Virus record (IMG/VR): IMGVR_UViG_3300008952_000004
Coordinates: 1-64,000 of that record
Source of the DNA: a virus
Reading direction: 5' to 3' (one strand)
DNA: 64,000 bases
A program made the position numbers and the translations under genes. Below the pieces are notes generated by a model. That model worked only from the letters and a program-made list of their open reading frames with translations. It made no database searches and was not told where the DNA came from. Of the stretch, positions 8,829-39,469 are shown one piece after another; the stretch's first letter is position 1, and the number at the start of each line of letters is the position of its first letter.

Positions 8829-8877
8829 AAATAACTAATTATTGAGAATAGAATTATATTCTGGAGATTATATTAAA

Positions 8878-16141: not shown

Positions 16142-16449
16142 GGGGGCGAACTGGTATCGACAGTGTGCCGAAAATTATTTGTGCAAGGCTGTGTGAGTGT
16201 ACACAGTAAAAACACTCAACTTTTTAACTGCAAACGATAACGTTGAAGTTGATTACGCCTTAGCTGCGTAATCTGGGGAAGCCATTCCTTATTAATCAAA
16301 ATGGCATATTGGGATTCCTACTTCCTTATAAGGTAGGTGGTTAGCGGGGGCATGTAGAGTTTGTCAGAGTACATAAACTGACTAACCTTGTGAATGACAA
16401 ATAAATGGAAACATATTGGACCGGGGTTCGACTCCCCGCGCCTCCACCA
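16142..16449 (+). ncRNA. ssrA: tmRNA (transfer-messenger RNA), tag ANDNVEVDYALAA
   Basis: This is a complete one-piece tmRNA of 308 nt. The 5' end GGGGGCG (16142-16148) pairs with CGCCTCC (16439-16445), including the conserved third-position G-U. A T arm (CGGGG TTCGACT CCCCG) and encoded ACCA (16446-16449) end it. The 5' side has the tmRNA D-loop-like CTGGTATCGACAG. The tag frame starts at GCA 16230 and stops at TAA 16269-16271, giving ANDNVEVDYALAA, which ends in the YALAA degradation signal used by proteobacteria. It rescues stalled ribosomes with SmpB (presumably the host's) and tags the products for proteolysis. It suggests the phage supports translation quality control or host-mRNA clearance late in infection. 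Confidence 0.96.
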
Positions 16450-22859: not shown

Positions 22860-22863
22860 AAAA

Positions 22864-24120: not shown

Positions 24121-25394
24121 AAAAAAGAATCTTAGTAAGAGGACCTGCACTGAGCAGGAGTGGTTATGGAGAACAGACACGCTTTGCTCTGAGGGCGCTT
24201 AAACATCATCAGGATAAATTTGATATTTTCCTTCAGGCAACGAATTGGGGTGCAACCTCTTGGGTGACCGAAGATGACGAAGAAAGGCAGTGGATCGATA
24301 ACCTGCTTCAAAAGACAATTGTCCACACTCAACAAAATGGCACTTATGACATATCTTTACAAGTGACAATTCCAGGCGAATGGCAAAAAATAGCCCCAGT
24401 TAACATTGGATACACTGCTGGAATAGAAACAACAAAAATATCTCCGAATTGGCTGGAGAAAACTTATTTGATGAACAGAATTGTTGTTCCGTCGACTCAC
24501 GCTAAAGAGGCGTTTGTGACAACATCTTGGAAAGCTCGGACACCATCTGGCGAAGAAATCGACGTTGGTTGTACAACTCCGATAGAGCCTGTATCTTTTC
24601 CTGCAAAAGAAACGGAACCTGAGCCTTTGTCCATCGAACTTCCAACTAAATTTAATTTTCTTACCGTCGCACAATTAAGCCCTAGGAAGAATTTTGATAA
24701 AACCTTAAAATGGTTTGTCGAGGAATTCCACGACCAAGAAGATGTTGGGCTAGTCGCAAAGGTAAATTTAGCAAAAAATTGTATTATCGATCGACAAGCG
24801 ACATTGATGAGATTAAGGATTATGCTGCACGAGTACCCAAATCGAAAGTGCAAAGTTTATCTTCTGCATGGTGCTTTATCTGAGGGCGAGATGCTTTCTT
24901 TGTATTCAAACCCAAGAATCAAGGCTTTGGTATCGACGTCTCATGGAGAGGGTTTTGGTTTGCCTATGCTAGAGGCTGCACAGTCAGGACTCCCGGTAGT
25001 TGCCCCGAACTGGAGCGGATACTTAGACTTTTTATCTATGCCAATTAAAAATAAAAAGACGAAAAAGGAAAAAATCAAACCTAGGTTCTTGAAAGTCGAT
25101 TACGAGCTAAAGCTTGTACAGAAGGAAGCCGTGTGGAATGATGTCATTATTCCGGAATCGATGTGGTGTTATCCAAAAGAACATTCATTTAAATCGGCAC
25201 TTAGAAAAGTGTATAATGAGCAAAATATAGTGATAGCTCAAGCTAAAAAACTACAAACCCATATTAATAAAACCTTGACAAACGAGGCACAATATGATAA
25301 ATTCATATCAGCGATGGGGTTACATTTTGAACCAACCACTGTGGAGGTTGACGTGTTTGCTCCAACGGAAGACACAATTCAAGAGCACAAATAG
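24117..25394 (+). CDS. GT-B glycosyltransferase (GT4-like)
   Basis: A 425-residue protein starting at the ATG of an ATGA overlap with the first transferase. It opens KKRILVRGPALSRSGYGEQTRF. The second domain has FNFLTVAQLSPRKNFDKTLKWF and STSHGEGFGLPMLEAAQSGLPVV, the nucleotide-sugar-binding E-motif. The two neighbours are the same fold and may have arisen by duplication, but differ strongly in sequence. It adds a further sugar to a phage-specified glycan, by context. Confidence 0.85.
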   Translation: MKKRILVRGPALSRSGYGEQTRFALRALKHHQDKFDIFLQATNWGATSWVTEDDEERQWIDNLLQKTIVHTQQNGTYDISLQVTIPGEWQKIAPVNIGYTAGIETTKISPNWLEKTYLMNRIVVPSTHAKEAFVTTSWKARTPSGEEIDVGCTTPIEPVSFPAKETEPEPLSIELPTKFNFLTVAQLSPRKNFDKTLKWFVEEFHDQEDVGLVAKVNLAKNCIIDRQATLMRLRIMLHEYPNRKCKVYLLHGALSEGEMLSLYSNPRIKALVSTSHGEGFGLPMLEAAQSGLPVVAPNWSGYLDFLSMPIKNKKTKKEKIKPRFLKVDYELKLVQKEAVWNDVIIPESMWCYPKEHSFKSALRKVYNEQNIVIAQAKKLQTHINKTLTNEAQYDKFISAMGLHFEPTTVEVDVFAPTEDTIQEHK

Positions 25395-25397
25395 AGA

Positions 25398-27044
25398 ATG
25401 AAATATGTTTTAATATCCGATTATCTGCCCCGCGAAGTAATCGGGGGCTGCGAAATAAATAATCAAGAGCTAGTTCTCTTATTAAAAAAGAGACAAAGAG
25501 ACATTTTTGAGATAAAATCATCCCAAGTGGACTTAGAATTTATTTCCAAGAACAAAGAATCTTTTTTCATTGTTTCTAATTTTATCGAACTCTCTGAGGC
25601 TTCGCGTGCTGAATTATTAAAATATAAATACATAATCTATGAACATGACCACAAATATTTGGTTAATAGAAACCCCGCCATCTTTTCAGGTTGTCGCGCT
25701 CCAGTTAGCCACATAGCAAATGAGTATTTTTATGCTGGAGCACAAGCGGTATTATGTCAGACCAATTTTCACGCTGAAATATTATACAGAAATTTAGCGT
25801 TGCCAAACGTTATTTCTTTGGGTGGTAATCTTTGGTCTGATGACATATTGGATTTGTTGGAGGAATGTGCTTCTTGTGCAAAGAGTACAGGGGCAACGGT
25901 TATGTCCTCTCCTATTGCTCATAAAAATACGATTGGAGCTATTAACTATTGCGAAGAGCAGGGCTATTCTTATAATTTAATTGCATCAAACAATCAAAAA
26001 GTTTTTCTTAAAGATTTAGCGAAACAGGAAAAGTTTATCTTTTTGCCCAAGACTCCGGAAACCCTTTCTCGTGTTGTCTGTGAAGCCCGAATGATGGGGG
26101 TTAACGTTGTGACCAATGGTCTGGTCGGCGCCACAAAAGAACCTTGGTTTTCTCTTAAAGGAAAAGAATTGGTTAATTTTATGAGACAGAAAAAACAAGA
26201 GATAGTGGACCTAGTTGAAGGAATTTTTCTCGAAACCGCTAACAAGGGTGAATTCGCTCTCAAGAACAAACTTGTGTCTGTTGTCATGCCAGCTTATAAT
26301 GATCAAGAGTATGTTTCACAGGCTATAGAAGATTTGATTAAACAAACATATTCGAATATCGAAGTTATTATTGTTGATGATGGATCCACAGATTCAACAG
26401 CAGAAATTTGCCAAAAATATGCAGAGGAATATGATTTCATCAGATTTTATAAAAAAAACAACGGCGGCACGGGCAGTGCCTTGAACTTTGGATTCGAAAA
26501 AGCTACGGGTGATTATGGGACTTGGGTTTCGTCTGATGACAGAAGACCGGCTAACTGCATAGAAAGAATGGTACGTGCCTTGGAAAATAATAATGTTGAG
26601 TTGGTTTTTGCTGCGTATCTTAGTGAGAGATTTAATAGAGCGTGGCGCTCTTATACACCGTCTAATAATGCTTTAGGATACCAGTGGGCAGAAAATGGTT
26701 TTACTTGGGAGGGCACACCATCAAAAGAAACATTTGTTGTCGACAACTGGGTCGATCTCAATCTACATCATTGTCACTCTGGTGTTTCTTTTTTGTTTAC
26801 CAAGGATTTAAAAAAACGCTCTGGTGAATATCTTAATCTCCCAGGTGAAGATTATCATATGGAAGTAAAGATGGGGATGTTAGCAAAAGAAAACAAAGTG
26901 GCTTACATTGATGAGGTCCTTGGCTGGCACAGGTTTCCACCAACCTCTTTGACGTCGACAGATGCCAGTTGTGTATTTGAGGCGGAAAAAATAACTAAAA
27001 ATATGATCTTAGAATGGAAAGAAACAGGCGTGGTTAATGGGTAA
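25398..27044 (+). CDS. Two-domain glycosyltransferase (GT-B-like + GT2)
   Basis: A 548-residue protein. Residues 1-290 are GT-B-like (KYVLISDYLPREVIGGCEI start; a late E-motif-like FLPKTPETLSRVVCEARMMG). Residues 290-540 are a GT2 domain: VSVVMPAYNDQEYVSQAI, EVIIVDDGSTDST and an SSDDRR loop (DXD-like, SDD). Two transfers by one polypeptide are suggested, as in polysaccharide synthases. It follows the previous gene by 3 nt and overlaps the next by 8. Confidence 0.8.
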   Translation: MKYVLISDYLPREVIGGCEINNQELVLLLKKRQRDIFEIKSSQVDLEFISKNKESFFIVSNFIELSEASRAELLKYKYIIYEHDHKYLVNRNPAIFSGCRAPVSHIANEYFYAGAQAVLCQTNFHAEILYRNLALPNVISLGGNLWSDDILDLLEECASCAKSTGATVMSSPIAHKNTIGAINYCEEQGYSYNLIASNNQKVFLKDLAKQEKFIFLPKTPETLSRVVCEARMMGVNVVTNGLVGATKEPWFSLKGKELVNFMRQKKQEIVDLVEGIFLETANKGEFALKNKLVSVVMPAYNDQEYVSQAIEDLIKQTYSNIEVIIVDDGSTDSTAEICQKYAEEYDFIRFYKKNNGGTGSALNFGFEKATGDYGTWVSSDDRRPANCIERMVRALENNNVELVFAAYLSERFNRAWRSYTPSNNALGYQWAENGFTWEGTPSKETFVVDNWVDLNLHHCHSGVSFLFTKDLKKRSGEYLNLPGEDYHMEVKMGMLAKENKVAYIDEVLGWHRFPPTSLTSTDASCVFEAEKITKNMILEWKETGVVNG

Positions 27045-28104
27045 AAAAATAATAGTGACGGTCACCGGGATACGACCAGATTTCATTCGTATGTCAGAGG
27101 TGTTTCGAAAATTGGACAATGACGATGCATTCGAACACATATTAATACACACGGGACAACACTACGATGATCTTTTATCCGGTGTGTTTTTTAAAGATCT
27201 TGAAATAAGAGAGCCTGATTATAACTTGTCTATTGGCGGGGAAGGTCGATCACATCACCACCAACAGGCAGAACTTTCAGTAAGAATACTTGAGCTATTC
27301 GAACAACGAAAGATTAATCCAGATATTGTGTTATTTTTAGGAGACAGTAATTCAGTATTAGCATCAGTGCCGGTGCGTAAGCAGGGCTTTAAAGTTGGAC
27401 ATATTGAAGCAGGGATGCGTAGTTATGATGAAAGAATGCTAGAGGAGATCAATAGAAAAGTATGTGATCACGTTAGTAACTTCTTGTTTGTTTATCATGA
27501 AAACTATAAGAAAAAAGCCCTTAGAGAAGGAATTCCGGAGGGTAGAATATATGTTGTAGGAAACACAATTGTTGAGCCATTGCGTAAGATAGCGGACTTA
27601 GAATATAGAGGCACAAAAAAACATATCCTTTTAGATATTCATAGACCAGAAAACTTTTTATACCCCAAACGTCTTAAAGCAATAATTGAATATGCAAACA
27701 GATATTCGAAGATATTCACCACTCCGGTTAAAATGCTTTCATTTGGAAGAACAGAAGAAGCCCTGAAAAAAAATAATATAGATTTAGGGGAAATTCAAAC
27801 GGTACCATTAATGGGATATAAAGATTATGTTAGAGCACAGCAAGATAGTCGGTTTATCATAAGCGATAGTGGTACTGCACAAGAGGAACCAGCGCTTCTT
27901 GGCGTTCCTGTGATAGTACCAAGGGAATTTACAGAGCGTCCGGAATCCGTTGAAAACGATTGTAGCTTTATGCTAAAGTTTAATGAGAATTCGTTTATTG
28001 ATTCAGTTGATTGGGTTATGACACACATAAGAGCACATACCGATTGGCTTGGGAATGGCGATGCTTCACAGATGATTGTTGATATATTAAGGGAGCAGCT
28101 ATAA
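27037..28104 (+). CDS. wecB: UDP-N-acetylglucosamine 2-epimerase (WecB-type)
   Basis: A 355-residue non-hydrolysing epimerase. Landmarks: VTVTGIRPDFIRMSEV, HTGQHYDD, VGHIEAGMRSYDERMLEEINR with the catalytic Asp/Glu region, VVGNTIVEPL, and ISDSGTAQEEPALLGVPVIV with TERPES. It interconverts UDP-GlcNAc and UDP-ManNAc, the first step to ManNAc/ManNAcA or bacillosamine-like surface sugars. The usual GTRPE is GIRPD here. It is followed by glycosyltransferase and deacetylase genes with 1-nt overlaps, consistent with one translation-coupled operon. Confidence 0.92.
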   Translation: MGKKIIVTVTGIRPDFIRMSEVFRKLDNDDAFEHILIHTGQHYDDLLSGVFFKDLEIREPDYNLSIGGEGRSHHHQQAELSVRILELFEQRKINPDIVLFLGDSNSVLASVPVRKQGFKVGHIEAGMRSYDERMLEEINRKVCDHVSNFLFVYHENYKKKALREGIPEGRIYVVGNTIVEPLRKIADLEYRGTKKHILLDIHRPENFLYPKRLKAIIEYANRYSKIFTTPVKMLSFGRTEEALKKNNIDLGEIQTVPLMGYKDYVRAQQDSRFIISDSGTAQEEPALLGVPVIVPREFTERPESVENDCSFMLKFNENSFIDSVDWVMTHIRAHTDWLGNGDASQMIVDILREQL

Positions 28105-28862
28105 TGAAAATTATTGGATTTTCCCAACTCCGTAATGAATTATCGAATGGAAATTTAGAAAATTGGTTTCGTTGTATGAACTTTTGCGATTATATATACA
28201 TATATGACCAAGCATCAGACGATGGAAGTAAAGAGTACTATAAAAAATATAAAAACACTGTTGTGATTGAATCACCAGTTAACGACTTTGAACGAGAAAT
28301 AACTTGTAAAGATATTCTTCTAAGGCGCGTCTTAAATGACCACCCAGATACAGATTGGATTTATTGGATCGACGGGGATACCATATTAGACGGAAGGATG
28401 TTGAGAAATGGTCATAGAGAGATATACAATATTCTAGAACAAGCTTCAGCCCAAAAAATTGACGCGATAGTTATGGGGCATTATAATTTATGGCGAAGTG
28501 ACATATATCATCGTGTAGACAACGATTATGATTGGTTTCACAGAAACGGTCGCCGTGTTTTTTGGAGGAACAACGGGCTGCTAAAGTTTGTCGATAATGG
28601 CGGGCTACACCAACCTCAATTTCCGCAGGGGTTATTAAAACAAGTCCGAATTGATAGAGATTTAATCCACCGTGGTTTTGCAACTGACGAACAAATCATG
28701 AATAGATACAATTTATATAAATCAAAGGGGCAAACTGGTCCAATGTTAGAAAGGTTGATTGACGAGACAGGATTACAGGTTAAAAGTATCCAGAGCGACA
28801 TATTTCCCGATTGGTATAAAACTGATGATGTACTCAACCCTTCAGAGAAAAAGAGGCTTTAA
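28104..28862 (+). CDS. GT2-family glycosyltransferase-like protein
   Basis: A 252-residue GT-A-type protein. It opens KIIGFSQLRNELSNGNLENW; IYIYDQASDDGSKEYY and WIYWIDGDTILDGRM carry the DXD-like metal/nucleotide site (D-G-D). It overlaps its neighbours by single bases. It resembles the glycosyltransferase family 2 'Glyco_tranf_2_4' group. Specificity is unknown. Confidence 0.8.
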   Translation: MKIIGFSQLRNELSNGNLENWFRCMNFCDYIYIYDQASDDGSKEYYKKYKNTVVIESPVNDFEREITCKDILLRRVLNDHPDTDWIYWIDGDTILDGRMLRNGHREIYNILEQASAQKIDAIVMGHYNLWRSDIYHRVDNDYDWFHRNGRRVFWRNNGLLKFVDNGGLHQPQFPQGLLKQVRIDRDLIHRGFATDEQIMNRYNLYKSKGQTGPMLERLIDETGLQVKSIQSDIFPDWYKTDDVLNPSEKKRL

Positions 28863-29479
28863 TGTATGATAAAATCATTATTTCGCCACATGTGGATGAT
28901 GATGTACTTGGTTGTGGTGGTATATTAGACGAGAAATCATTAGTATTATATTGCGGTATTGATGATTTCCACGTTGTGAGTCGCGAGGAACGCATAAAGG
29001 AAGCAGACGCTGCCTCAGAAGTCTTGGGACACTCTTATATCATACTCCACGGAAATAAGGTTAATAGATATTTAGCAAATGATCTTATTGATGACTTTTC
29101 GAACTTTATTAATATGCATAAACCACAGCAGATTTTTATACCCTATCCTTCATATAATCAAGACCACCGGGCGGCATATGAGGCAGCGCTCATCGCGTTA
29201 CGACCTCACGATATAAATTTTTTTGTTAAAGAGGTGCTGGTATATGAACAGCCACATGTATTTTTTTGGGATCATACTCATACAATAGGTTCTGGATTTA
29301 AACCGAACTATTATGTGCCTATCAATATAGAAAGAAAAAAAGATGCATATAAAATGATGGCATCACAGAATAGAACATTTCGCAGTGTAGAACATATTGA
29401 TGCTTTAGCAACGTTACGCGGCGGTCAATCTGGGTGTACACACGCAGAAGCATTTCAAGCAATTAGGGTGGTGAAATAG
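28862..29479 (+). CDS. PIG-L/LmbE-type N-acetyl-sugar deacetylase
   Basis: A 205-residue protein with the zinc motif ISPHVDDDVLGCGG (H10-x-D12-D13, the HPDDE-type site) and a later NQDHRAAY His that completes the site. The family removes acetyl groups from N-acetylglucosamine-type sugars. The next gene is a formyltransferase, so the pair could swap N-acetyl for N-formyl on a hexosamine. It is slightly short for the family but has all core motifs. Confidence 0.85.
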   Translation: MYDKIIISPHVDDDVLGCGGILDEKSLVLYCGIDDFHVVSREERIKEADAASEVLGHSYIILHGNKVNRYLANDLIDDFSNFINMHKPQQIFIPYPSYNQDHRAAYEAALIALRPHDINFFVKEVLVYEQPHVFFWDHTHTIGSGFKPNYYVPINIERKKDAYKMMASQNRTFRSVEHIDALATLRGGQSGCTHAEAFQAIRVVK

Positions 29480-30160
29480 ATGTCAAAAATTTTATTTTGT
29501 GGATATCGCCCATGGGCAAAAGAAATATATTATAATATAACCCATGGGAACCAATATAAAATTAAATCTTCTATAAAATTAATAGAATCGATAGACGAGT
29601 TAGAAAAAGAAATGGAACTTGAGAAGCCAGAAGCTATATTTTTTGTTGGTTGGAGTTGGATTGTGAAAAAAAATATTGTTGATAATCATTTATGTATTTG
29701 TTTACATCCTTCGCCGCTGCCAAAATATAGAGGCGGTTCTCCGATACAACATCAAATAATCAATGGCGAAACAAAAAGCGCAGTCACTCTGTTTAAAATG
29801 GATGAACACATAGACCGTGGTGATGTGTTATTTCAATATCCTTTCTCATTAAATGGCAACCTAAAAGATATATTCCGTCGAATTGTCGACGTTGGTCAAT
29901 ACGGTATAAGAAGATTGATTAAACAGATCGACAGTCCATCAACACTTCAAGGGGCTGCTCAGGACAAAAAAGAGGCAACATATTTTAAGAGAAGAACGCC
30001 AGACATGAGTGAAATAAAAGTTGAAGATCTTCTTAACTGTTCAGCAAAACAGATATATAATAAGATACGAGCGTTACAAGATCCTTACCCAAACGCATAT
30101 ATTGTTTGCGGAGACGGGTCTAAACTTTATCTACAATACGCAGAGGTGGATGATGAATAA
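29480..30160 (+). CDS. Sugar/methionyl-tRNA formyltransferase-family enzyme
   Basis: A 226-residue protein with the formyltransferase core LHPSPLPKYRGGSPIQ (H76) and KMDEHIDRGDVL (D112), the catalytic His and Asp of FMT/ArnA/sugar N-formyltransferases that use N10-formyl-tetrahydrofolate. The usual Asn two residues before the His is Cys here, as in some distant members. It is too short for a Met-tRNA formyltransferase and lies in a glycan operon directly after a deacetylase, so N-formylation of an amino sugar is the likely role. Confidence 0.8.
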   Translation: MSKILFCGYRPWAKEIYYNITHGNQYKIKSSIKLIESIDELEKEMELEKPEAIFFVGWSWIVKKNIVDNHLCICLHPSPLPKYRGGSPIQHQIINGETKSAVTLFKMDEHIDRGDVLFQYPFSLNGNLKDIFRRIVDVGQYGIRRLIKQIDSPSTLQGAAQDKKEATYFKRRTPDMSEIKVEDLLNCSAKQIYNKIRALQDPYPNAYIVCGDGSKLYLQYAEVDDE

Positions 30161-30920
30161 AAATGTAGAAGTAGTTACTCTTGTATATAAATCTGTAAAA
30201 TATTTGCACTTCATATGCGATCAACTACAGAGCGATCTTTGTAAGGTTGATGGATGGGATGTTGGCGTCCGTGTTGTAGCAAATGATGCTACACCAGAAG
30301 TATTAAAAGAGTTGGAGAATGTGGACATTAAATATTCTATATTTGATAACCCCGATCCAAACGAATTTTATTTAAACAGGGTATATCGTGCGTACAACTA
30401 TGCTGTCACCTCAAGCGAATATGACAATGTATGCTTGGTTAATTCGGACGATGTTTTTTGTAAGGACTGGTTGGCTAACCTGTTAAAACATCATGATGGG
30501 GTCAATATTCCTTGTAGCCGATTAATTGAGAGTGGTAAAATGGATAGCGGGATGCACGGCGTTAACCTCATGAGGGTGGAGGGAGAACATTTTGGTCGCC
30601 ATCCAGATGAATTTGATATGGAGCGCTGGCTTTCATATGCTGAAAAAATAAAAGAAAACCGCATTGAACCACGTGGATTGTATATGCCCTGTGTTTTAGA
30701 AAAAGATCGGGTCATCGAAAGCGGACTATACCCGGAAGGAAACGTATTTCTTGAACCACCCAACAAATTGATGATTGGATATCCTAATGACAGACCCGTG
30801 TGGCGCGCAGGAGATGATTTTTATTTTCATTATGTTCTAGAGCCGAAATACGGTATGAAACACATAACTGTTTTTGATTCACCGGTATATCATATTATTG
30901 AAGGAGAAAAGGACGAATAA
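30153..30920 (+). CDS. GT-A glycosyltransferase-like protein (paralogue of the next)
   Basis: A 255-residue protein. ATG 30153 or 30150 are both possible within the GAGGTGGATGATG context; it overlaps the formyltransferase end. NVEVVTLVYKS opens a GT-A fold; NVCLVNSDDVF holds a DXD-like SDD. CKDWLANLLKHH and SRLIESG match the next gene's HKDWLANMYKHA and CKLIEPG. The two adjacent genes are thus tandem duplicates or close relatives that diverged. Donor and acceptor are unknown. Confidence 0.7.
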   Translation: MNKNVEVVTLVYKSVKYLHFICDQLQSDLCKVDGWDVGVRVVANDATPEVLKELENVDIKYSIFDNPDPNEFYLNRVYRAYNYAVTSSEYDNVCLVNSDDVFCKDWLANLLKHHDGVNIPCSRLIESGKMDSGMHGVNLMRVEGEHFGRHPDEFDMERWLSYAEKIKENRIEPRGLYMPCVLEKDRVIESGLYPEGNVFLEPPNKLMIGYPNDRPVWRAGDDFYFHYVLEPKYGMKHITVFDSPVYHIIEGEKDE

Positions 30921-30921
30921 A

Positions 30922-31719
30922 ATGTATTATAACGGAAAATGGGACAACCCAAAAGTTGTGATGTACTGTCAAATTGGTGGTGCGTTAGATATGGCTAAAT
31001 TTGCAGTTGAAAGCGCAATCGAGAATAGTGGCATGCCGGATGAAGATGTGGATATTGTCTTTATTTGCTGGAAGACAGCACCAGAGGTGTATGAATGGCT
31101 GGAGAAAAAAAACTTTAAGTATGTTGATATTGGATATGACGAAGGGAAGGGCTTCTTGTGGAATCTGTATCGTGGCTGGAATGCTGGGTATGAGATAGCA
31201 TACGAGTATACAGATTATATCTGCCCTATTGCTACGGATCATTACTTTCATAAAGACTGGTTGGCTAATATGTATAAGCACGCCAAGTCAAATCGAATTG
31301 TTAATTGCAAACTGATTGAGCCGGGAACCTTGCCCTCTTTGCACACTTGTAGAGATTTTGGTCTGACCCTTCATAATAGTTTTAAGAAAGAAGAGTTTCT
31401 TGAGTTCGCGAACAAATTTTGTGAACTGAGCAAGGACCAGCTTGCGACTGATGAAATAGAGTATGGACATCGATTTGATGCGATGCCTTTTATTTGCGCT
31501 AAAGATGTTTGGCAAAGATTTGGACCAATGTCCAAAGTACTCGTACATGGAAGTCCAGACCCAGAGGGGGTTTTCATACACAATGTTACCGGTGACACAG
31601 ATTTTTTCAATCGTTGTAAATTTAATAACGTTGAGGTAGTAAAGGCGCTGGACGCTCTGAGTTACCACTGTGGCGGTCTAGAAACACAGATTAACAAACA
31701 ACGCGGAGTGTACACGTGA
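30922..31719 (+). CDS. GT-A glycosyltransferase-like protein (paralogue of the previous)
   Basis: A 265-residue protein with ATG at 30922 just after the previous stop; the frame is open upstream but this start follows GGAGAAAAGG. PKVVMYCQIGGALDMAKFAV opens the fold; YICPIATDHYF replaces the SDD with a TDH in the metal-site position. The paralogous DWLAN-x-x-KH and LIE-x-G blocks are kept. The altered site may mean different activity or an inactive partner. Ends in QINKQRGVYT. Confidence 0.65.
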   Translation: MYYNGKWDNPKVVMYCQIGGALDMAKFAVESAIENSGMPDEDVDIVFICWKTAPEVYEWLEKKNFKYVDIGYDEGKGFLWNLYRGWNAGYEIAYEYTDYICPIATDHYFHKDWLANMYKHAKSNRIVNCKLIEPGTLPSLHTCRDFGLTLHNSFKKEEFLEFANKFCELSKDQLATDEIEYGHRFDAMPFICAKDVWQRFGPMSKVLVHGSPDPEGVFIHNVTGDTDFFNRCKFNNVEVVKALDALSYHCGGLETQINKQRGVYT

Positions 31720-32513
31720 GAATCGGCATAGTCGGCGTTGGCGTTGTGGGTTCCGCCATTAAATATGGTTTCGAGAAACTGGGGCACGATATATTTGTGC
31801 ATGATATTCGCCTAGGTACAACCCTAGAAGACGTACTACCCTCGGAGATATGTTTTTTGTGTTTACCAACACCATCTGATGAATTTGATCGCTGTGATAT
31901 CTCCATTGTAGAGGAGACAGTTTCTAGATTGTGCGATCTGAAGTATCAGGGTATCGTGGCTATTAAATCAACTGTATCACCGGGAACTACACAATCCCTT
32001 ATAAAAAAACATAAGTGGTATAATATTTGTTTTGTACCAGAATTTCTTAGAGAAAGATGTGCTTCTATTGATTTTGTCGAGAACCATGATGTATGTATAA
32101 TCGGCACAAATGAAGATTGGATATATGATAAGGTAGTATCCGCCCATGGAAAGTACCCGCAGACCTTTTGTCGCTTGACTCCGACAGAAGCTGAATTGTC
32201 TAAGTATTTTAATAACATTTATAATGCAACTCTGATCACATTTGCAAATAGTTTTTTTGAAGTGTGTGAGGCAGTCGGCGCCGATTATACTAATGTAAAA
32301 AATGCGATTACAACTCGAACACATATTCAGGATATATATCTTGATTGTAATAAAAACTTTAGGGGCTTTGGCGGCATGTGCTTACCCAAGGATACTAAAG
32401 CTATAGCCGCACTTTGTAAAGAAAGAAACATCAGTGTGAACTTTTTCAAATCACTTTTGGAAGAAAATAACAAATATAAAATAACAGTGTTTGAAGGGAT
32501 GAGGTTAAAATGA
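31716..32513 (+). CDS. Short UDP-sugar 6-dehydrogenase-like protein
   Basis: A 265-residue protein with a GTG start overlapping the previous TGA. It has the NAD-binding start IGIVGVGVVGSAIKYG, CLPTPSDE, AIKSTVSPGTT, VPEFLRE, SKYFNNIYNATLI and the catalytic Cys in GFGGMCLPKDTKA. These are the motifs of UDP-glucose/UDP-ManNAc dehydrogenases. Usual length is 390-450, and the C-terminal UDP-binding domain is missing here. It could be a shortened functional form or a degenerate one. Expected product would be a uronic-acid nucleotide sugar, following the WecB-type epimerase. Confidence 0.8.
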   Translation: MRIGIVGVGVVGSAIKYGFEKLGHDIFVHDIRLGTTLEDVLPSEICFLCLPTPSDEFDRCDISIVEETVSRLCDLKYQGIVAIKSTVSPGTTQSLIKKHKWYNICFVPEFLRERCASIDFVENHDVCIIGTNEDWIYDKVVSAHGKYPQTFCRLTPTEAELSKYFNNIYNATLITFANSFFEVCEAVGADYTNVKNAITTRTHIQDIYLDCNKNFRGFGGMCLPKDTKAIAALCKERNISVNFFKSLLEENNKYKITVFEGMRLK

Positions 32514-33238
32514 GTAGAGAAAAAAAGATGAAAATTTTGATTCCGTTAGCAGGCGCCGGTTCTCGATTCTTTAAGGAAGGGTATACAGATCCGAAACCTC
32601 TTATTGATGTTGCAGGAAAGCCAATGATACGTCGGGTTATTGAAAATATTGACATGCCAGAAATGGAACACATCTTTATTGTTCAAAAGTCACACATTGA
32701 AAAGTATCCTAAAATTAAAGAATATCTTAGTGGCTGCGTCCGACGGGCTACGCTAGTTGAGATTGATGGTTTGACTGAAGGGGCAGCTTGCACAACCTTA
32801 TTAGCAGAAGAATACCTAGATGACAGTCCGCTCCTTATTGTGAATTCGGATCAATGGGTTGACTGGGTACCATCACACTTTGTTAACTTTTGCAAAGATT
32901 TGGACGGCTGCATTCCTTTCTTTTTATCAGACAGTCCAAAGCACTCATACTCTAGAGTGAACTACGAAACGGGTTTGGTAACTCAGGTCGCAGAAAAGCA
33001 GGTTATAAGTAATTTTGCCACAGTCGGGATATATTATTGGAAAAGTGGAAAAGAATATATCGATTGTGTTAAAGAGATGATTCGCAAAGACATCAGATTC
33101 AACAATGAATTTTACATTTGTCCCGTCTATAACATTTTGATAAATTCTAGAGGCGGGCAGGTAAAACCTTATCCAGTGTTTGAAATGAGGGGAATGGGAA
33201 CTCCCCAGGAACTAGAAAAATTTATAAATAAACTTTAA
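32510..33238 (+). CDS. Sugar nucleotidyltransferase (NTP-transferase family)
   Basis: A 242-residue protein with KILIPLAGAGSRFFKEGY followed by DPKPLIDVAGKPMI, the signature of nucleotidyltransferases that make NDP-sugars (G-x-G-x-R and the K-P-x-x-x-x-G-K-P-M-I segment). LIVNSDQWVDW holds the catalytic Asp. It activates a sugar phosphate to a nucleotide sugar. The ATG at 32510 overlaps the previous stop; the ATG at 32528 would remove six residues. It supplies donors to the many transferases in the operon. Confidence 0.88.
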   Translation: MSREKKMKILIPLAGAGSRFFKEGYTDPKPLIDVAGKPMIRRVIENIDMPEMEHIFIVQKSHIEKYPKIKEYLSGCVRRATLVEIDGLTEGAACTTLLAEEYLDDSPLLIVNSDQWVDWVPSHFVNFCKDLDGCIPFFLSDSPKHSYSRVNYETGLVTQVAEKQVISNFATVGIYYWKSGKEYIDCVKEMIRKDIRFNNEFYICPVYNILINSRGGQVKPYPVFEMRGMGTPQELEKFINKL

Positions 33239-33252
33239 TTAAGGAGAAATAG

Positions 33253-34443
33253 ATGCGCTTGTTTAAGAGCCTTAAAGAAATTGATTTAGACAAATATATT
33301 ATTTGCACTTATTATTTGCAATCAAGCACTACGCTTCGTGACGCGGCTTGGGCTCTGGCAATCGGACAAAGTGTGGGCAATCCAAATGTAAGAAATCGCT
33401 GGGAAACAGATAAATTGTTTGAAGAACATTCTTGTCTGATCGTTGGGACAGAGGAATCCCTTGCATCCGTCAAAGCGGGCACAATCCAAATCGCTTTTCC
33501 TATTGTGAACACGGATTTCAGAACTGATGGCGTTTCACATCTACTCTGTCAGTTTATGGGTGGACAAATGGACATTGATATAGTTGAAAAGTGTCATCTA
33601 AATAAAGTTGAAATACCAAAAAGAATAGAACAGAAATATTTTCTTAAACCAAAATATGGAATTGACGGTATTAGAAAGTTTACTGGCGTCGGCGAAAAAC
33701 CACTACTTGGCGGCATCGTCAAGCCAAAAATTGGTGTAGATAGCAGGGTATTATTAGAGATGGTCAAAGAGATGGTTCAGGGCGGAGTGAACTTCATTAA
33801 AGAGGACGAAATAATGTCAAACCCTGCTTGTTGCCCGATAGAAGAAAGAGTGCCTCTGATCATGGAATATATTAAAGATAAAAATGTAATTTATTCAGTT
33901 TGTGTTAATAGCGACCCGGCACAGGTAATTGAACGGGTCAAAAAAGTTCACAGTATGGGAGCTAATTCGATCCATATAAATTTTTGGAGCGGCTTGGGAG
34001 TATATAAATCAATTCGAGAATTGGACTTACCCTTATTCATACATTTTCAAAAAAGCGGCGACAAAATTTTAACAAACAAAGAACACGCTTATCATATTTC
34101 TTGGGATGTTATTTGTGATTTGGCTGGACTAATGGGTGTTGATTTTATACATGCCGGTATGTGGGGTGGGTATATGTCAGACAACGAAACCTCACTTAGA
34201 CAAACATTACAAATTTTACATAATAGACAGGTGATGCCAGCGCTAAGTTGTGGGATGCATCCCGGTCTTGTGCAAGCAATTAATGAAAAGTTTGGTGTGA
34301 ATTACCTTGCCAATGTCGGCGGCGCCCTCCACGGTCATCCGAAAGGAACACTTGGCGGGGCAATGGCAATGCGGCAAGCAATCGATAATACTCCATCAGA
34401 GGAATATAATATTGCAATTGATAAGTGGGGCTTGATCAAATGA
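33253..34443 (+). CDS. RuBisCO-like protein (large-subunit family, form IV-like)
   Basis: A 396-residue RuBisCO-fold protein. The N-terminal domain has TYYLQSSTTLRDAAWALAIG. The barrel holds GGIVKPKIG (K157, K159), GGVNFIKEDEIMSNP (K183, D185, E186: carbamate Lys and metal ligands), LFIHF (H264), FIHAGMWGG and SCGMHPG plus GHPKGT. These align with RuBisCO K175/K177, K201/D203/E204, H294, H327 and S379. The loop-6 Lys (K334) is absent (GMWGGYMSD) and R295 is Phe, so true CO2 fixation is unlikely. Such RuBisCO-like proteins carry out enolisation, decarboxylation or isomerisation of sugar or sulfur compounds. Strong AAGGAG site. Lies in a glycan operon and is coupled (4-nt overlap) to a phosphodiesterase-like gene. 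Function is unknown. Confidence 0.9.
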   Translation: MRLFKSLKEIDLDKYIICTYYLQSSTTLRDAAWALAIGQSVGNPNVRNRWETDKLFEEHSCLIVGTEESLASVKAGTIQIAFPIVNTDFRTDGVSHLLCQFMGGQMDIDIVEKCHLNKVEIPKRIEQKYFLKPKYGIDGIRKFTGVGEKPLLGGIVKPKIGVDSRVLLEMVKEMVQGGVNFIKEDEIMSNPACCPIEERVPLIMEYIKDKNVIYSVCVNSDPAQVIERVKKVHSMGANSIHINFWSGLGVYKSIRELDLPLFIHFQKSGDKILTNKEHAYHISWDVICDLAGLMGVDFIHAGMWGGYMSDNETSLRQTLQILHNRQVMPALSCGMHPGLVQAINEKFGVNYLANVGGALHGHPKGTLGGAMAMRQAIDNTPSEEYNIAIDKWGLIK

Positions 34444-34880
34444 TCGTGATTTCCCATAGGGGATATGAAAGTGGGGAAAATGATAAGTTGGAGAATAACC
34501 CTCTCCAGATAAGAAGGCTTTTGAGTATGGGCATAGATGTAGAGATAGATGTGTCATATGACGGTCGTTTTTTCCTGGGACACAATAGTGGCAAGTATGA
34601 AATCGATATTGATTTTTTAAAACAGGACGGGCTCTGGTGTCACGCAAAAGATAGTCTGGCATTTGAACTGATGCTGCAAAGCGGTGTGCACTGTTTTTGG
34701 CATCAGTGTGACGACTATACTTTGACCAGCCGAGGCATAATCTGGGCTTATCCCTCAAAAGACTTGCACAATCTGCATCAATCGGTGTTATTATTTCCAG
34801 AAAATATCCCCGGTGGATTAACAAGTGCTCAGCGGGAAAATCTTTACGCGATATGTACTGATTTTCCGTTTCTATATTAG
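34440..34880 (+). CDS. Short GDPD/PI-PLC-like phosphodiesterase
   Basis: A 146-residue protein starting at the ATG of an ATGA overlap with the RuBisCO-like gene. VISHRGYESGENDKLENNP and DVEIDVSYDGRFFLGH give the H-R-G, E-N and E-x-D metal/catalytic motifs of the glycerophosphodiesterase/PLC TIM-barrel family. LWCHAKDSLA and FWHQCDDYTLTS..IWAYPSK complete the pattern of a short version found in polysaccharide clusters. It may act on a phosphodiester-linked sugar or lipid. Tight coupling to the RuBisCO-like gene suggests a shared substrate. Confidence 0.75.
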   Translation: MIVISHRGYESGENDKLENNPLQIRRLLSMGIDVEIDVSYDGRFFLGHNSGKYEIDIDFLKQDGLWCHAKDSLAFELMLQSGVHCFWHQCDDYTLTSRGIIWAYPSKDLHNLHQSVLLFPENIPGGLTSAQRENLYAICTDFPFLY

Positions 34881-34892
34881 GAGTAATTTTTT

Positions 34893-35633
34893 ATGAAAGT
34901 TGGAACAGTAATAACAATGTATGACGAACATCCGATTGCTCTTAAAAGCGTGACGGAAATAAAAAAAACGATACCAGATAGTACAATCATACTGGTGCAC
35001 TCAGATGATTGTCAAGAAACATCAGAATTAATAGCCCTCAAGGAGATGGTTACTGAATATATAATATTACCGGACATGTCTAAGGTGTTGACTAATCAAC
35101 AAGCACTGGGCGCCAATTGTATTGCTAGAAATTATAGTGCTGGATTTAAATCCCTTTATTCGTTGGGAAAACAATATGACCTAGTTGTGGCTTTGACAGC
35201 GGACACTCTTATAACCGACGGGGAATCATTTTCTAGGCGTCGGGAGGAAATGCTCCGCACCGAGCGTACAGCCTTGGTGTCACAGGCTATAGGACAGAAT
35301 TTCCATGCAGTAGCCAAGGATGGAAGTCGAATTGTTGAGGGTCGCCATCAGAGTCCTGAAATAACTGACTTTATGCCGCAGCTTTTTTTTCTTGACGGCA
35401 GTTTTGCAGCGAAACAAAGGGCGTTCGAAGACGTTGAAGTTACAAATCCGTATGCGTCGGAACAGTGTCTGGGCGATAACTTAGTTAATTGCTTGACAAA
35501 AGAAGATAAAACGTTCTATAATAGTGTTGGTAGATTAAACTGGTTCTCTCCTACATTCGCATATGCTTATGCAGATGGCGCGGAGTATCATGCATTGCAC
35601 GGCGGCATTCCAGCGGGAAGAGAAATAAAATGA
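34893..35633 (+). CDS. GT2-like glycosyltransferase
   Basis: A 246-residue protein with a good TAGGAG site. VGTVITMYDEHPIALKSV opens a GT-A fold; STIILVHSDDCQE is the first DXD-like region and LVVALTADTLITDG carries a second acidic loop. The end (YADGAEYHALHGGIP) is family-like. It overlaps the next gene by 4 nt. Acceptor unknown. Confidence 0.7.
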   Translation: MKVGTVITMYDEHPIALKSVTEIKKTIPDSTIILVHSDDCQETSELIALKEMVTEYIILPDMSKVLTNQQALGANCIARNYSAGFKSLYSLGKQYDLVVALTADTLITDGESFSRRREEMLRTERTALVSQAIGQNFHAVAKDGSRIVEGRHQSPEITDFMPQLFFLDGSFAAKQRAFEDVEVTNPYASEQCLGDNLVNCLTKEDKTFYNSVGRLNWFSPTFAYAYADGAEYHALHGGIPAGREIK

Positions 35634-36664
35634 AAAAAGTAATTATTACCGGTAGTCAAGGGTTCATAGGTTCTTATCTATGTACAGAATTTTTAGAAAG
35701 AGGATATGAAGTTGTGGGTATTGACAACTATTCCAAATATGGGGTGGTTAAAAGAGCACACGACAATCATCCAAACTTTTCTTTGTTTGAAATGGACATA
35801 TGTGAGCTAAATTCTAAAAAGGTGCAACCCCACCCATCATTTGCCGACGCTGATTATATTATAGCCAATGCAGCAATGATTGGCGGCATTAGTTACTTTC
35901 ACAAATATGCATACGACTTGTTGGCTACTAATGAGAGAATTTTAGCCTCGACATTTGATTTGGCTATCAGGCTTCATAAAGAATATAATTTAAAAAGAAT
36001 TCTTGTCTTGTCTAGTAGTATGGTATTCGAAAACACTAACAGATACCCAACTCCGGAGTACGAAGTGGAGACTTGCTCTCCACCCGCAAGTACATATGGC
36101 TTTCAGAAACTGGCATCGGAGTATTTTTGCCGAGGGGCTTATGAACAATATAAATTACCATATACAATTATAAGACCCTTTAATTGTGTCGGTATAGGCG
36201 AAGAAGAAGCAGTTGGCGAAGATGTCGTTATGTCGGGGAACATTAAAATGTTAATGAGCCATGTTCTCCCTGATCTGATTCATAAATCATTATTGTTAAG
36301 CCCCAACGATGCTTTGCCAATCCTTGGGGATGGTACACAGATTCGTCATTATACAAACGGTAAAGACATTGCAAAGGGGGTTAGAATTGCCCTAGAATCA
36401 GAAAAAGCAGTTAATGAGGATTTTAATATTTCATCCCCAGAGGCAACCACGGTTGCAGAATTAGCTGATCTTGTTTGGCAAAAAATTCACAATACAAAGG
36501 TTAAGTTTGAACATTGCCAGCCGTTTGAATATGATGTACAAATTAGAAGTCCGGACGTCAATAAAGCTAAAGATATTTTAGGTTTTATAACAGAAGTGAC
36601 TTTAGAGGAAAGTGTTGATGAGGTCATAGAATGGATGAGGAAACAAAATGAAAAATCTAGTTGA
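35630..36664 (+). CDS. NAD-dependent nucleotide-sugar epimerase/dehydratase (extended SDR)
   Basis: A 344-residue SDR. GSQGFIGSYL is the NAD-binding glycine motif, LSSSMVF the catalytic Ser strand, and STYGFQKLASEYF gives the Y-x-x-x-K pair (YGFQK). IIRPFNCVGIG follows. It has full SDR length. It interconverts a nucleotide sugar (4-epimerase, dehydratase or decarboxylase type); exact reaction unknown. It lies two genes after the RuBisCO-like protein, together with a second SDR, which points to the synthesis of an unusual sugar. Confidence 0.88.
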   Translation: MKKVIITGSQGFIGSYLCTEFLERGYEVVGIDNYSKYGVVKRAHDNHPNFSLFEMDICELNSKKVQPHPSFADADYIIANAAMIGGISYFHKYAYDLLATNERILASTFDLAIRLHKEYNLKRILVLSSSMVFENTNRYPTPEYEVETCSPPASTYGFQKLASEYFCRGAYEQYKLPYTIIRPFNCVGIGEEEAVGEDVVMSGNIKMLMSHVLPDLIHKSLLLSPNDALPILGDGTQIRHYTNGKDIAKGVRIALESEKAVNEDFNISSPEATTVAELADLVWQKIHNTKVKFEHCQPFEYDVQIRSPDVNKAKDILGFITEVTLEESVDEVIEWMRKQNEKSS

Positions 36665-36995
36665 TAAAATTATTAAAGAAGCAATACATAAATATGATGG
36701 AAGCTATACTTTGGATAACCCATTTGAAGAAATGATGAGCTTTGGGGAGTTGGTTGACCGATTATCAATTGTTAATTTCAAACTTTTTACTCTAAAAGAT
36801 GAGGTTATGAAACGTCCCGAAGATGACGACTTTAAGTCTTGGGCATCCGTTGAAGACGTTAAACTCGTTAAAGAACGTTCCCGACTTAAAAGATGCATTG
36901 ATGAGAAGATGGTTGCTATGATTACGCGAATCTCAGATGGAGACGCAAGTGGAGGATTTAATCCAGAAGTTAAAAAATATGGGGATAAAATATGA
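36648..36995 (+). CDS. Small helical protein of glycan clusters
   Basis: A 115-residue all-helical protein with FGELVDRLSIVNFKLFTLKDEV, a segment I associate with small proteins of polysaccharide clusters (LIDKLSIVN-type). Two basic/acidic helices follow, with RSRLKRCIDEKMVAM. It sits between two SDR genes, overlapping both. No enzyme motif; a partner or regulator of the neighbouring enzymes is possible. Confidence 0.6.
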   Translation: MKNLVDKIIKEAIHKYDGSYTLDNPFEEMMSFGELVDRLSIVNFKLFTLKDEVMKRPEDDDFKSWASVEDVKLVKERSRLKRCIDEKMVAMITRISDGDASGGFNPEVKKYGDKI

Positions 36996-37933
36996 AAATT
37001 TTAGTCGTAGGCGGCGCCGGTTACGTCGGTGGACATATGGTTGACCTCTTATCAAAGAATCATGATGTTACGGTATACGACCTTCTCTTATTCGAGAAGA
37101 GGTTTATGAAGCGAGTTAATTTTATTTATGGAGATGTGAGGGACACAGAAAAGCTAGGTACCATAATTAATGATTACGGTACTGTGGTGTGGCTAGCAGG
37201 TATGGTCGGCGACGGCGCATGCGCTGTAAATCCTGCCTTGACAACAGCAGTTAATTATGATTCAGTTAAGTGGCTTGTTGATAACTATAATGGAAGGATC
37301 GCTTTTCCATCAACTTGTTCAATCTATGGTATTAACAACGAACTTATTAATGAAGAGGCAAAACCAAATCCTTTGTCACTTTATGCCGCTACAAAACTTA
37401 AAGCAGAAAAATATATTCGAGCGAATGCGTCTGGTGAATATATTATCTTCAGGCTTGGTACTCTGTTTGGTTTAGGTGACGAGCATTCGCGTATACGACT
37501 GGACTTAGTAGCTAACATTCTTTCTATGCGCGCAGCTAAGGGACTTCCATTGACAGTATTTGGCGGCGAACAATGGCGACCCTTATTACATGTTAAAGAT
37601 GCTGCCCGAGCCTTTGTGTATGCAATAGAGAATAATGTTGCAGGTTATTATAATCTTTCGTACAAAAATTATACGATACAAAGTTTGGCAGAAGAAATAT
37701 CAGATTATATACCGAATACTGAGATTAAATATGTAGATATGCCGTTTGAGGATTTAAGAAATTACAAAGTTAATAATTCTAAGTTCTCGGAATATGATTG
37801 GAAACCCAAATATTCCCTTAAAAACGGGGTCGAAGAAGTGTATAATCTTATTATCCAACAAAGAATTAAGGATACAAACGATATGATATATTCAAATGCT
37901 AGATATATAAAGGAAATCGAGGGAGACAAATAA
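36992..37933 (+). CDS. NAD-dependent nucleotide-sugar epimerase/dehydratase (extended SDR)
   Basis: A 313-residue SDR with VGGAGYVGGHMV, AFPSTCSIYG, and SLYAATKLKAEKY (Y-x-x-x-K). FRLGTLFGLG and WRPLLHVKDAARAFVYAI follow, all typical of UDP-sugar 4-epimerase-type enzymes. The 4-nt overlap with the previous gene and 1-nt overlap with the next fit one operon. Substrate unknown. Confidence 0.88.
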   Translation: MKILVVGGAGYVGGHMVDLLSKNHDVTVYDLLLFEKRFMKRVNFIYGDVRDTEKLGTIINDYGTVVWLAGMVGDGACAVNPALTTAVNYDSVKWLVDNYNGRIAFPSTCSIYGINNELINEEAKPNPLSLYAATKLKAEKYIRANASGEYIIFRLGTLFGLGDEHSRIRLDLVANILSMRAAKGLPLTVFGGEQWRPLLHVKDAARAFVYAIENNVAGYYNLSYKNYTIQSLAEEISDYIPNTEIKYVDMPFEDLRNYKVNNSKFSEYDWKPKYSLKNGVEEVYNLIIQQRIKDTNDMIYSNARYIKEIEGDK

Positions 37934-38355
37934 TGGGTATTCAATTGATTGAAGGTGGAATGTTCGCTGATGATCGCGGCAAATTGAGGTTTGTGAATGG
38001 GTTTGATTTTTCTAATGTGAAAAGATTTTATCAAGTGGAAAATCATCGTCAAGGGTTCATACGGGCTTGGCACGGACATGTAAAAGAGGGGAAGTATGTT
38101 TATGTGGCTAGCGGTACCGCTCTGGTTGGCGCCGTCCCACTGGACGATGATACTGTCACACCTAAGAAATATGTTTTAACTTCTGAAAAGCCACAGGTTT
38201 TGTGGATTCCTCCGAATCACGCTAATGGGTTTATGAATCTTGAAGAAGGTACAGTTATATTGTTCTTCTCAACTTCTACCTTAGAAGAGAGTAAGGGGGA
38301 CGATATTAGATTTCCTTATGACAAGTGGAACATTTGGGAGGAGGATTATCGATAA
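37933..38355 (+). CDS. RmlC-like cupin (sugar 3,5-epimerase or sugar isomerase type)
   Basis: A 140-residue cupin. FADDRGKLRFVNGFD, KRFYQVENHRQGFIRAWHGHVKEGKYVYVASG and IPPNHANGF are the beta-barrel motifs of RmlC/WxcM-type enzymes (the H of HGH and the R of FIRAW in the active site). They epimerise or isomerise dTDP-4-keto-6-deoxy sugars. Its RmlD-type partner is two genes downstream. Confidence 0.8.
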   Translation: MGIQLIEGGMFADDRGKLRFVNGFDFSNVKRFYQVENHRQGFIRAWHGHVKEGKYVYVASGTALVGAVPLDDDTVTPKKYVLTSEKPQVLWIPPNHANGFMNLEEGTVILFFSTSTLEESKGDDIRFPYDKWNIWEEDYR

Positions 38356-38645
38356 TGACTTTTAAACAATACTATGATTATTATTTAAGCTTACACCAAA
38401 ACAAATGGACCCGTCGCTTACACGTTATGGGGCAGGCGGCAACAGTCTTATTTGTTATTTTGTGTGTATCTAAAGGCGCTTGGTTAGCACTCTTATTTGC
38501 CCCTTTTGTTGTGTATCCTTTCGCTTGGAGCGGTCATTTCTTTTTTGAGAAAAATATACCGGCTGCTTTTTCTAAACCCATCTGGGCTAAAGCGTGTGAT
38601 TGGCTAATGTTAAGAGATATTATTTTTGGGAGAATAAAATGGTAA
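38355..38645 (+). CDS. Mpo1-like (DUF962) membrane protein
   Basis: A 96-residue protein. ATG 38355 overlaps the previous stop (TAATG) and is preferred to an upstream start. YYLSLHQNKWTRRLHVMG, a membrane-like middle (LFVILCVSKGAWLALLF), GHFFFEKNIPAAFSKPIW and DWLMLRDII match the Mpo1/DUF962 family. It has the conserved H, E-N-x-PA and D-x-M elements. Yeast Mpo1 is a 2-hydroxy fatty-acid dioxygenase, so a lipid role in the host membrane is possible. It is short of full family length (about 150-200). Confidence 0.7.
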   Translation: MTFKQYYDYYLSLHQNKWTRRLHVMGQAATVLFVILCVSKGAWLALLFAPFVVYPFAWSGHFFFEKNIPAAFSKPIWAKACDWLMLRDIIFGRIKW

Positions 38646-39469
38646 AAGTACTAATTCTTGGAAGCACCGGCATGCTCGGCAATGCTGTTGGCAAGTGGTT
38701 TTCTAAACAGTCTGACCGGTATGAAGTGACATTCACTCACAGGGATTATGATTTAGCTAGCACATATTATGAAGACAAAAATCTTCTTCATTTTGATTGT
38801 TTGGAGGATAAGTTAGTTGATCTTGATTTATCTGGGTATGATTATGTCATTAATTGTATTGGTACAATTAAACCATTTATGTCCTCAAACCCACTATCTG
38901 CAATTAAAATAAATTCTGTTTTTCCCTGGACACTGGCTTGTGTCTGCAAGGGCGCAGGCGCAAAGCTGATTCACATTACAACTGATTGCGTATATTCAGG
39001 GGCGGTAGGACAGTATACTGAAGATGATGAGCACGATGCGCGAGATGCATATGGAAAAAGTAAGTCTCTCGGCGAACCAGATAACTGTATGGTACTGAGA
39101 ACGAGTATTATTGGCGAAGAAGTTCATAAAAACGCTAGCTTGATTGAGTGGGTAAAAAGTCAACGAGGCAACACAGTCAATGGCTATATTAACCACGACT
39201 GGAATGGAATCACAACCACTCAGTATGCGAAGACCTGCGACTATATCATTTCGAACGATATGTATGTTGAGGGTACGTACCACGTGATGTCGCCGAAACC
39301 AGTCAATAAATATGAGCTTGTTACTCTGCTCGGACAGAAATATAATTTAGATCTAACGGTCAATGAATTCGAAGCATCGATTAGAGTTGATCGCACACTT
39401 GGAACTGTAAAGAGTTTGTGTGGGGATTTGAACATACCATCCATCCAACAACAAATAGCGGAGATGTAA
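38639..39469 (+). CDS. rmlD: dTDP-4-dehydrorhamnose reductase-like SDR (RmlD)
   Basis: A 276-residue SDR. VLILGSTGMLGNAVG is the NAD(P) site; VINCIGTIKPF, HITTDCVYSG and DAYGKSKSLGE (Y-x-x-x-K) match RmlD. Reduces a 4-keto-6-deoxy sugar nucleotide (dTDP-L-rhamnose route or similar). ATG 38639 overlaps the previous gene by 7 nt. Together with the cupin this gives the last two steps of a deoxysugar pathway; RmlA/RmlB-type enzymes could be the 32510 transferase and one of the SDRs. Confidence 0.82.
   Translation: MVKVLILGSTGMLGNAVGKWFSKQSDRYEVTFTHRDYDLASTYYEDKNLLHFDCLEDKLVDLDLSGYDYVINCIGTIKPFMSSNPLSAIKINSVFPWTLACVCKGAGAKLIHITTDCVYSGAVGQYTEDDEHDARDAYGKSKSLGEPDNCMVLRTSIIGEEVHKNASLIEWVKSQRGNTVNGYINHDWNGITTTQYAKTCDYIISNDMYVEGTYHVMSPKPVNKYELVTLLGQKYNLDLTVNEFEASIRVDRTLGTVKSLCGDLNIPSIQQQIAEM

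Follow-up and report, generated by a model that had tools for sequence, protein, structure and literature searches.

RuBisCO-like proteins (RLPs) are regarded as clues to the origin of RuBisCO, and few of them have a known function. The question raised by the present locus is what an RLP does in a viral genome, among genes for glycan synthesis. The window (the whole stretch of DNA that was analyzed, 64,000 nt) is the first 64 kb of the 189.7-kb IMG/VR record IMGVR_UViG_3300008952_000004.

The RLP Gene and Its Phage Genome

A T4-type gp23 capsid gene is located at 99.6–101.2 kb of the record, and genes for a baseplate wedge protein and a late sigma factor were found at 54101 and 40614 of the window; the DNA is therefore of phage origin and T4-like. 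The RLP gene lies in a glycan island (Table 1), whose genes encode glycosyltransferases, a UDP-GlcNAc 2-epimerase-like protein, a PIG-L deacetylase, a formyltransferase, epimerases, RmlC/RmlD-like proteins, a UDP-glucose dehydrogenase-like protein and an NTP transferase. The setting among nucleotide-sugar enzymes and glycosyltransferases, described in a first-pass annotation of this DNA, is thus real according to the profile matches. In the relatives L002–L006, genes following the island are conserved, including the sigma-factor-like gene, and the content of the island varies. The phage also carries a tmRNA gene (window 16142–16449) with the tag ANDNVEVDYALAA.

Table 1. Positions of the RLP gene and associated features in the window.
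Feature	Position	Strand	Remarks
Glycan island around the cassette	22810..39469	+	about 17 kb
UDP-glucose/GDP-mannose dehydrogenase-like gene	31716..32513	+	265 aa; profile match
Sugar-phosphate nucleotidyltransferase (NTP_transferase) gene	32510..33238	+	242 aa; Pfam 1e-10
Shine-Dalgarno-like AAGGAG before the RLP start	33241..33246	+	sequence
RuBisCO-like protein (RLP) gene	33253..34443	+	396 aa; ATG start
Short GDPD-superfamily-like protein gene	34440..34880	+	likely ATG 34440; listed ORF from GTG 34425

The nucleotidyltransferase gene ends 14 bases upstream of the RLP gene, and the RLP stop codon TGA overlaps the likely start of the next gene as ATGA. The encoded protein matched the catalytic-domain family RuBisCO_large of Pfam (PF00016; E = 4.3e-32, 112 bits versus a cut-off of 30 bits). 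Among the NCBIfam models, type III RuBisCO (6e-49) and MtnW (1e-46) were matched, and the score was far under the curated cut-off of every RuBisCO or RLP model. A sequence search of the PDB matched 99 sequences, the closest being MtnW (2oej). The AlphaFold model, built from a 59-sequence alignment, had a pLDDT of 95.1 and a pTM of 0.92; its best Foldseek match was the form III RuBisCO 8dht (TM 0.89), and MtnW 2oem was matched with a TM of 0.85. By profile match and by fold, the RLP is a member of the RuBisCO superfamily; Pfam, NCBIfam, PDB and Foldseek all agree with the homology first proposed. The dN/dS ratio of 55 pairs of relatives (median 0.067, maximum 0.12) is low, so the gene is under purifying selection.

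Active-Site Residues

Residues were compared among 30 sequences of the clade, unless another count is given, in spinach RuBisCO numbering (residues of the window protein in brackets). K175 (K157), K177 (K159), K201 (K183), D203 (D185), E204 (E186), S379 (S332) and G381 (G334) are kept, and H327 (H300) is kept in 29 of the 30 members. The metal and lysine residues, including K183, D185 and E186, are invariant in 59 diverse sequences. The changed positions comprise E60 (G38), T65 (N43), G380 (C333) and, in 29 members, H298 (D270). N123 (G104), H294 (Q266) and K334 of loop 6 (Y307) are replaced in all 30. R295 is Lys (K267) in all members except one, which has Arg. Q266, K267, Y307, C333, G104 and N43 are signatures of the lineage.

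In this alignment, the metal site K201/D203/E204 is present as K183/D185/E186, and the residue set for enolization is intact, with that for carboxylation (N123, H294 and K334) gone. The P2 phosphate site retains a basic residue, His and Ser, and the P1 site is rebuilt. Previously known RLPs differ in these positions: OiaX-like proteins keep H294, R295 and K334, and MtnW is without R295 and K334. The residues of the present lineage at N123, H294, R295 and K334 fit none of the RLP types compared.

Most markers named in the first-pass annotation (K157/K159, K183, D185, E186 and S332) were confirmed by the alignment, as was the missing loop-6 Lys. H264, which had been listed with them, aligns with H292 and not with the catalytic H294, and it is Phe in 10 of the 30 members. 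The claim that R295 is lacking holds insofar as the Arg is replaced, but the change is a conservative one to Lys and not a simple loss.

Phylogenetic Position

In a maximum-likelihood tree of 45 sequences, whose reference types were MtnW, 3qfw-type and OiaX-like RLPs and RuBisCO forms I, II and III, the viral and cellular members formed one group with 100/100 support. This group is separate from two others, of which one holds MtnW with the 3qfw-type RLPs and the other the OiaX-like proteins with the three RuBisCO forms. The same group was recovered in a quick tree of 59 sequences, and in whole-genome searches its members scored above 430 bits, with all other RuBisCO homologues below 160 bits. 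The NCBIfam scores of the RLP stay below the MtnW/YkrW cut-offs (132 versus 513.6 bits; 159 versus 409 bits) and the cut-off of the OiaX equivalog (115.5 versus 700 bits). The 3qfw protein is probably the DeepYkr Rlp1 of R. palustris, and the 3qfw-type RLPs are probably DeepYkr; the lineage branches apart from 3qfw and its relatives.

By residues and by tree position, the RLP is not a carboxylating RuBisCO of forms I–III. It belongs to form IV in the broad sense, that is, a RuBisCO fold with the carboxylation residues substituted. The phylogeny proposed earlier therefore upheld the view that the protein is RuBisCO-like and no carboxylase: the lineage is distinct from forms I–III, MtnW, the OiaX-like proteins and the 3qfw-type RLPs, and Tyr307 stands where a true RuBisCO has its loop-6 Lys. 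The GOS survey (PMC1821046) described RuBisCO homologues that group with none of the known forms. These may include members of the present lineage, sampled earlier without function or host.

Distribution in Viruses and Cells

A profile-derived scan of IMG/VR yielded about 296 candidate contigs that encode a relative of the RLP. The best 80 of these (≥57% identity) were inspected, and at least 80 IMG/VR contigs carry the lineage. No match to the RLP was found in the 50,697 phage records searched. A motif scan of 84,980 species genomes revealed 22 loci, some of them on short contigs of possibly viral origin. The bacterial loci belong to SAR11, other Alphaproteobacteria, Azospirillum, Legionella, Elusimicrobia, Verrucomicrobia, Patescibacteria, Crocinitomicaceae and a Sphingobacteriales MAG, and the archaeal (DPANN) loci to Pacearchaeota, Nanoarchaeia and Woesearchaeota. 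Of 385 genomes sampled in the class of Azospirillum, one had the gene, that one being the seed; of 140 sampled in the family of Legionella, 4 had it. The lineage is rare in cells. The plasmid matches had less than 60% identity, and those with an annotation were OiaX-like proteins, MtnW or other RuBisCO homologues.

A Conserved Cassette Around the RLP Gene

Neighboring genes were counted in 76 non-redundant RLP loci (85% identity). Relatives of the nucleotidyltransferase occur in 70 of these, in 66 of them within three genes of the RLP gene; a small cupin (107 aa) was found in 56 loci and a GDPD-like protein (150 aa) in 55. The commonest gene order is NTP-cupin-RLP-GDPD, and the recurrence of these partners across RLP loci means that a related neighborhood does exist in other phage contigs, where the first-pass annotation had proposed to look for it. 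The window has the nucleotidyltransferase, RLP and GDPD-like genes but lacks the cupin, and a search of the whole 189.7-kb record found none. All four genes are found together in Azospirillum (L029; GDPD at 3942, RLP at 4486, cupin at 5647, NTP at 6000) and in Elusimicrobia (L028). A full-length GDPD gene adjoins the RLP gene in Verrucomicrobia (L018) and lies near it in Nanoarchaeia (L027). The variable neighbors are glycan genes (methyltransferases, glycosyltransferases, epimerases and WavE). The specific unit is thus the cassette of NTP transferase, cupin, RLP and GDPD-like genes, which also occurs in cells, and not the whole glycan operon. The UDP-glucose dehydrogenase-like gene was rejected as a cassette partner, since few other RLP loci have it as a neighbor and it is not conserved. 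Its product in the window is without the C-terminal substrate-binding domain.

The nucleotidyltransferase showed weak matches to IspD and to a structure from the 6-deoxy-heptose pathway. The GDPD-like protein matched phrog_34507 (3e-17) and, by alignment, keeps the H-R, E-N, E-x-D, H-D and K motifs. For its AlphaFold model (pLDDT 94), Foldseek found no PDB match at E ≤ 0.001; the best of the weaker matches included GDPDs. A PDB sequence search with the cupin gave no match. The GDPD-like family carries all GDPD metal and catalytic motifs in about 60% of the usual length. Its relatives occur in about 586 IMG/VR contigs, nearly always near a nucleotidyltransferase gene, whether the RLP is present or not.

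Cassettes Without the RLP

In a converse scan, the cupin and GDPD-like genes were also found without the RLP. The GDPD-like gene was accordingly rejected as specific to the RLP, which is present in 5 of its 80 best viral loci. In RLP-less cassettes, the nucleotidyltransferase is often fused to RpiB (PF02502, 2.9e-29) or to a HAD phosphatase domain; the NTP::RpiB gene is followed by the same cupin family, with the GDPD-like gene next in most loci. Co-occurrence was tested among 66 non-redundant cupin cassettes. The NTP::RpiB fusion was found in 0 of 50 cassettes with the RLP and in 3 of 16 without it (Fisher p = 0.012), and an RpiB or C-terminal HAD fusion in 3 of 50 versus 11 of 16 (p = 1e-6), both values being uncorrected for phylogeny and for the choice of queries, and the RpiB cassettes representing few lineages. 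RpiB fusion and RLP never occur together among the 66, and in sister cassettes an RpiB fusion stands where the RLP would be.

The cyanophage Bellamy carries an NTP::RpiB protein annotated as 'phosphatase'. Genes that are likely misannotated lie at 5835–6992 and 11359–11667 of Synechococcus phage Bellamy (NC_047838, L338) and at 6693–7004 of S-SM2 (L337). A cyanophage 'phosphoheptose isomerase' (102–103 aa, beside the GDPD-like gene) was considered as an isomerase replacement and rejected, as it reads as a short HAD-type protein.

Proposed Function and Alternative Readings

Previous work has shown that the DeepYkr RLP of R. rubrum is a 1,3-isomerase of methylthioribulose-1-P, the product of which passes to a cupin (PMC4958253, PMC5893883). 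Because of this precedent and because the RpiB fusions exclude the RLP, the phage protein may be a Mg-dependent enzyme that isomerizes or epimerizes a sugar phosphate by way of enolization and would thereby help to supply a phage glycan with a nucleotide-activated sugar; we regard this as an even call. The reading is also favored by the conservation of the cassette in viruses and in several bacterial phyla, by the invariant enolization residues and by the low dN/dS ratio. A role of the RLP in the cassette is well supported, and we infer the reaction itself, including the isomerase chemistry, the substrate, the order of steps and the glycan as end use. In the proposed mechanism, Lys183, probably carbamylated, would bind Mg2+ together with Asp185 and Glu186, and Lys157 and Lys159 would serve as acid/base. 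The metal would stabilize the enediolate of a mono-phosphorylated keto-sugar, the phosphate of which would be held at the RuBisCO P2 position (K267, H300 and S332), and reprotonation elsewhere would give an isomer or epimer. The cupin would then rework the product of the RLP before its activation by the nucleotidyltransferase, and the GDPD-like protein may carry out some phosphodiester step. The end product would be a nucleotide-activated sugar or sugar-alcohol phosphate for the phage-encoded glycan. One point against this reading is the H294 position, which is Gln in the present lineage and His in MtnW and the 3qfw-type RLPs, and another is the window's lack of the cupin.

Replacement of the RLP by RpiB need not mean that the same reaction is catalyzed. 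The HAD fusions show the same alternation, so the slot may change the product, and with it the sugar, instead of repeating one reaction. With a product-changing slot possible, we hold the isomerase or epimerase reading at no better than an even chance, and a different metal-enolate reaction in the same activated-sugar cassette is a lesser, tentative possibility. This could be a retro-aldol, lyase or dehydration reaction or a branched-chain rearrangement, and the sugar would be unlike that of the RpiB version. The alternation of both HAD and RpiB modules with the RLP, and residues at N123, H294, R295 and K334 that match no RLP type compared, agree with such a reaction; on the other hand, the RLP chemistry in the cited papers (PMC4958253, PMC5893883) is isomerization or enolization.

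The first-pass annotation had suggested a branched or decarboxylated sugar; the latter would call for an OiaX/OiaT-like enzyme, a decarboxylase or transcarboxylase by which a keto-acid sugar phosphate is shortened. According to the NCBIfam family name, sugar-acid phosphates are the substrates of OiaX-like RLPs, and a UDP-glucose dehydrogenase-like gene is nearby in the window. The dehydrogenase, however, is not a conserved neighbor, the score of 115 bits is far short of the OiaX cut-off (700), and the lineage is separate with 100/100 support. Decarboxylation is improbable because the residues kept by OiaX-like proteins (H294, R295 and K334) are Q, K and Y in the present lineage, and the replacement of the RLP by RpiB fusions likewise speaks against the sugars suggested earlier.

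Salvage of methionine or of a 5-deoxy-sugar, of the MtnW or DeepYkr type, is very unlikely. One of the closest relatives of known structure is MtnW, and DeepYkr RLPs pair with a cupin (PMC4958253), but the scores (132–159 bits) are far from the MtnW cut-offs (409–514 bits), the branch is another one than that of MtnW and the 3qfw-type RLPs, and the recurring neighbors are glycan genes. A methionine-salvage or Calvin role was ruled out by scores, tree and context, as the earlier reading of the neighborhood had held. The many differing catalytic residues could point to an inactive or regulatory protein that retains the RuBisCO fold, which is hard to credit given metal and lysine residues invariant in 59 sequences and strong purifying selection. 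A true RuBisCO fixing CO2 for the phage has next to no probability: the closest fold is a form III RuBisCO (TM 0.89), but N123, H294, K334, T65 and E60 are all replaced and the protein falls outside the form I/II/III branch.

Comparison With Known Systems

MtnW (form IV YkrW, 2,3-diketo-5-methylthiopentyl-1-phosphate enolase) shares the full fold, K175, K201, D203 and E204 with the RLP, and both have lost the loop-6 Lys and R295. MtnW differs in having about 27% identity, a separate branch, Lys at N123, a retained H294 and a methionine-salvage context. The R. rubrum system resembles the cassette in that an RLP and a cupin, namely the DeepYkr isomerase of MTRu-1P and a methylsulfurylase, work side by side on keto-sugar phosphates, with isomerase chemistry that is known (PMC4958253); that system, however, serves sulfur salvage without a nucleotidyltransferase, and the present lineage is separate from the 3qfw-type RLPs (probably DeepYkr). 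OiaX and OiaX-like sugar-acid RLPs also employ the RuBisCO fold in carbohydrate metabolism, but in the plasmid records examined the OiaX-like genes are found with acid-sugar kinases, whereas the present lineage is found in biosynthetic cassettes. Form III RuBisCO (8dht, 1geh) is the best fold match (TM 0.89), whereas the RLP is without N123, H294 and K334 and outside the carboxylase branch. The cyanophage NTP::RpiB-cupin-GDPD cassettes (Bellamy and SynMITS9220M01) share their cupin, nucleotidyltransferase and GDPD-like families with the RLP cassettes and likewise lie in phage glycan islands, but they have an RpiB domain in place of the RLP. Heptose activation (HddC-type nucleotidyltransferase, GmhA and HAD phosphatase) follows a like logic of isomerase, phosphatase and nucleotidyltransferase, but it has no RLP and uses a different isomerase family.

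The RLP represents a lineage that is new within a known superfamily, and the sugar-activation cassette to which it belongs is conserved and undescribed. In agreement with the statement that no such phage system was known, no description of one was found in the open-access literature, subscription journals being mostly outside the search. We think it rather probable that this third deep RLP lineage, mostly of phages, is a dedicated activated-sugar enzyme and the first use of the RuBisCO fold for making a glycan precursor, itself probably undescribed, in a portable cassette of phages, SAR11, other bacteria and DPANN archaea. As the lineage belongs neither with the methionine-salvage RLPs nor with the branch of OiaX and RuBisCO, its reaction bears on the role of the ancestral fold. 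If it does make sugar precursors, hundreds of phage contigs would form a reservoir of chemistry based on the RuBisCO fold, and phage glycan islands would be linked to a pathway of four enzymes that can be tested. The small size of the cassette would allow its reconstruction in vitro.

Cellular Variants of the Cassette

Legionella maceachernii, L. drozanskii and L. nautarum (L031–L033) carry the RLP with a nucleotidyltransferase. A LicD-family gene (PF04991), divergent to the RLP gene, adjoins it in four Legionellaceae genomes (L031–L033 and L154), at whose RLP loci no GDPD-like or cupin gene was seen; no LicD was found at viral loci. Together with the weak IspD matches of the nucleotidyltransferase, LicD faintly hints at activation by CDP. 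The RLP loci of SAR11 (Pelagibacteraceae, L019–L026), where no cupin was detected, mostly have two flanking nucleotidyltransferase genes in the order GDPD-NTP-RLP-NTP. In Azospirillum oleiclasticum (L029), genes downstream of the cassette (6771–9568) read as subunits of a CysD/CysN-type sulfate adenylyltransferase, which suggests that a surface glycan of this bacterium may be sulfated.
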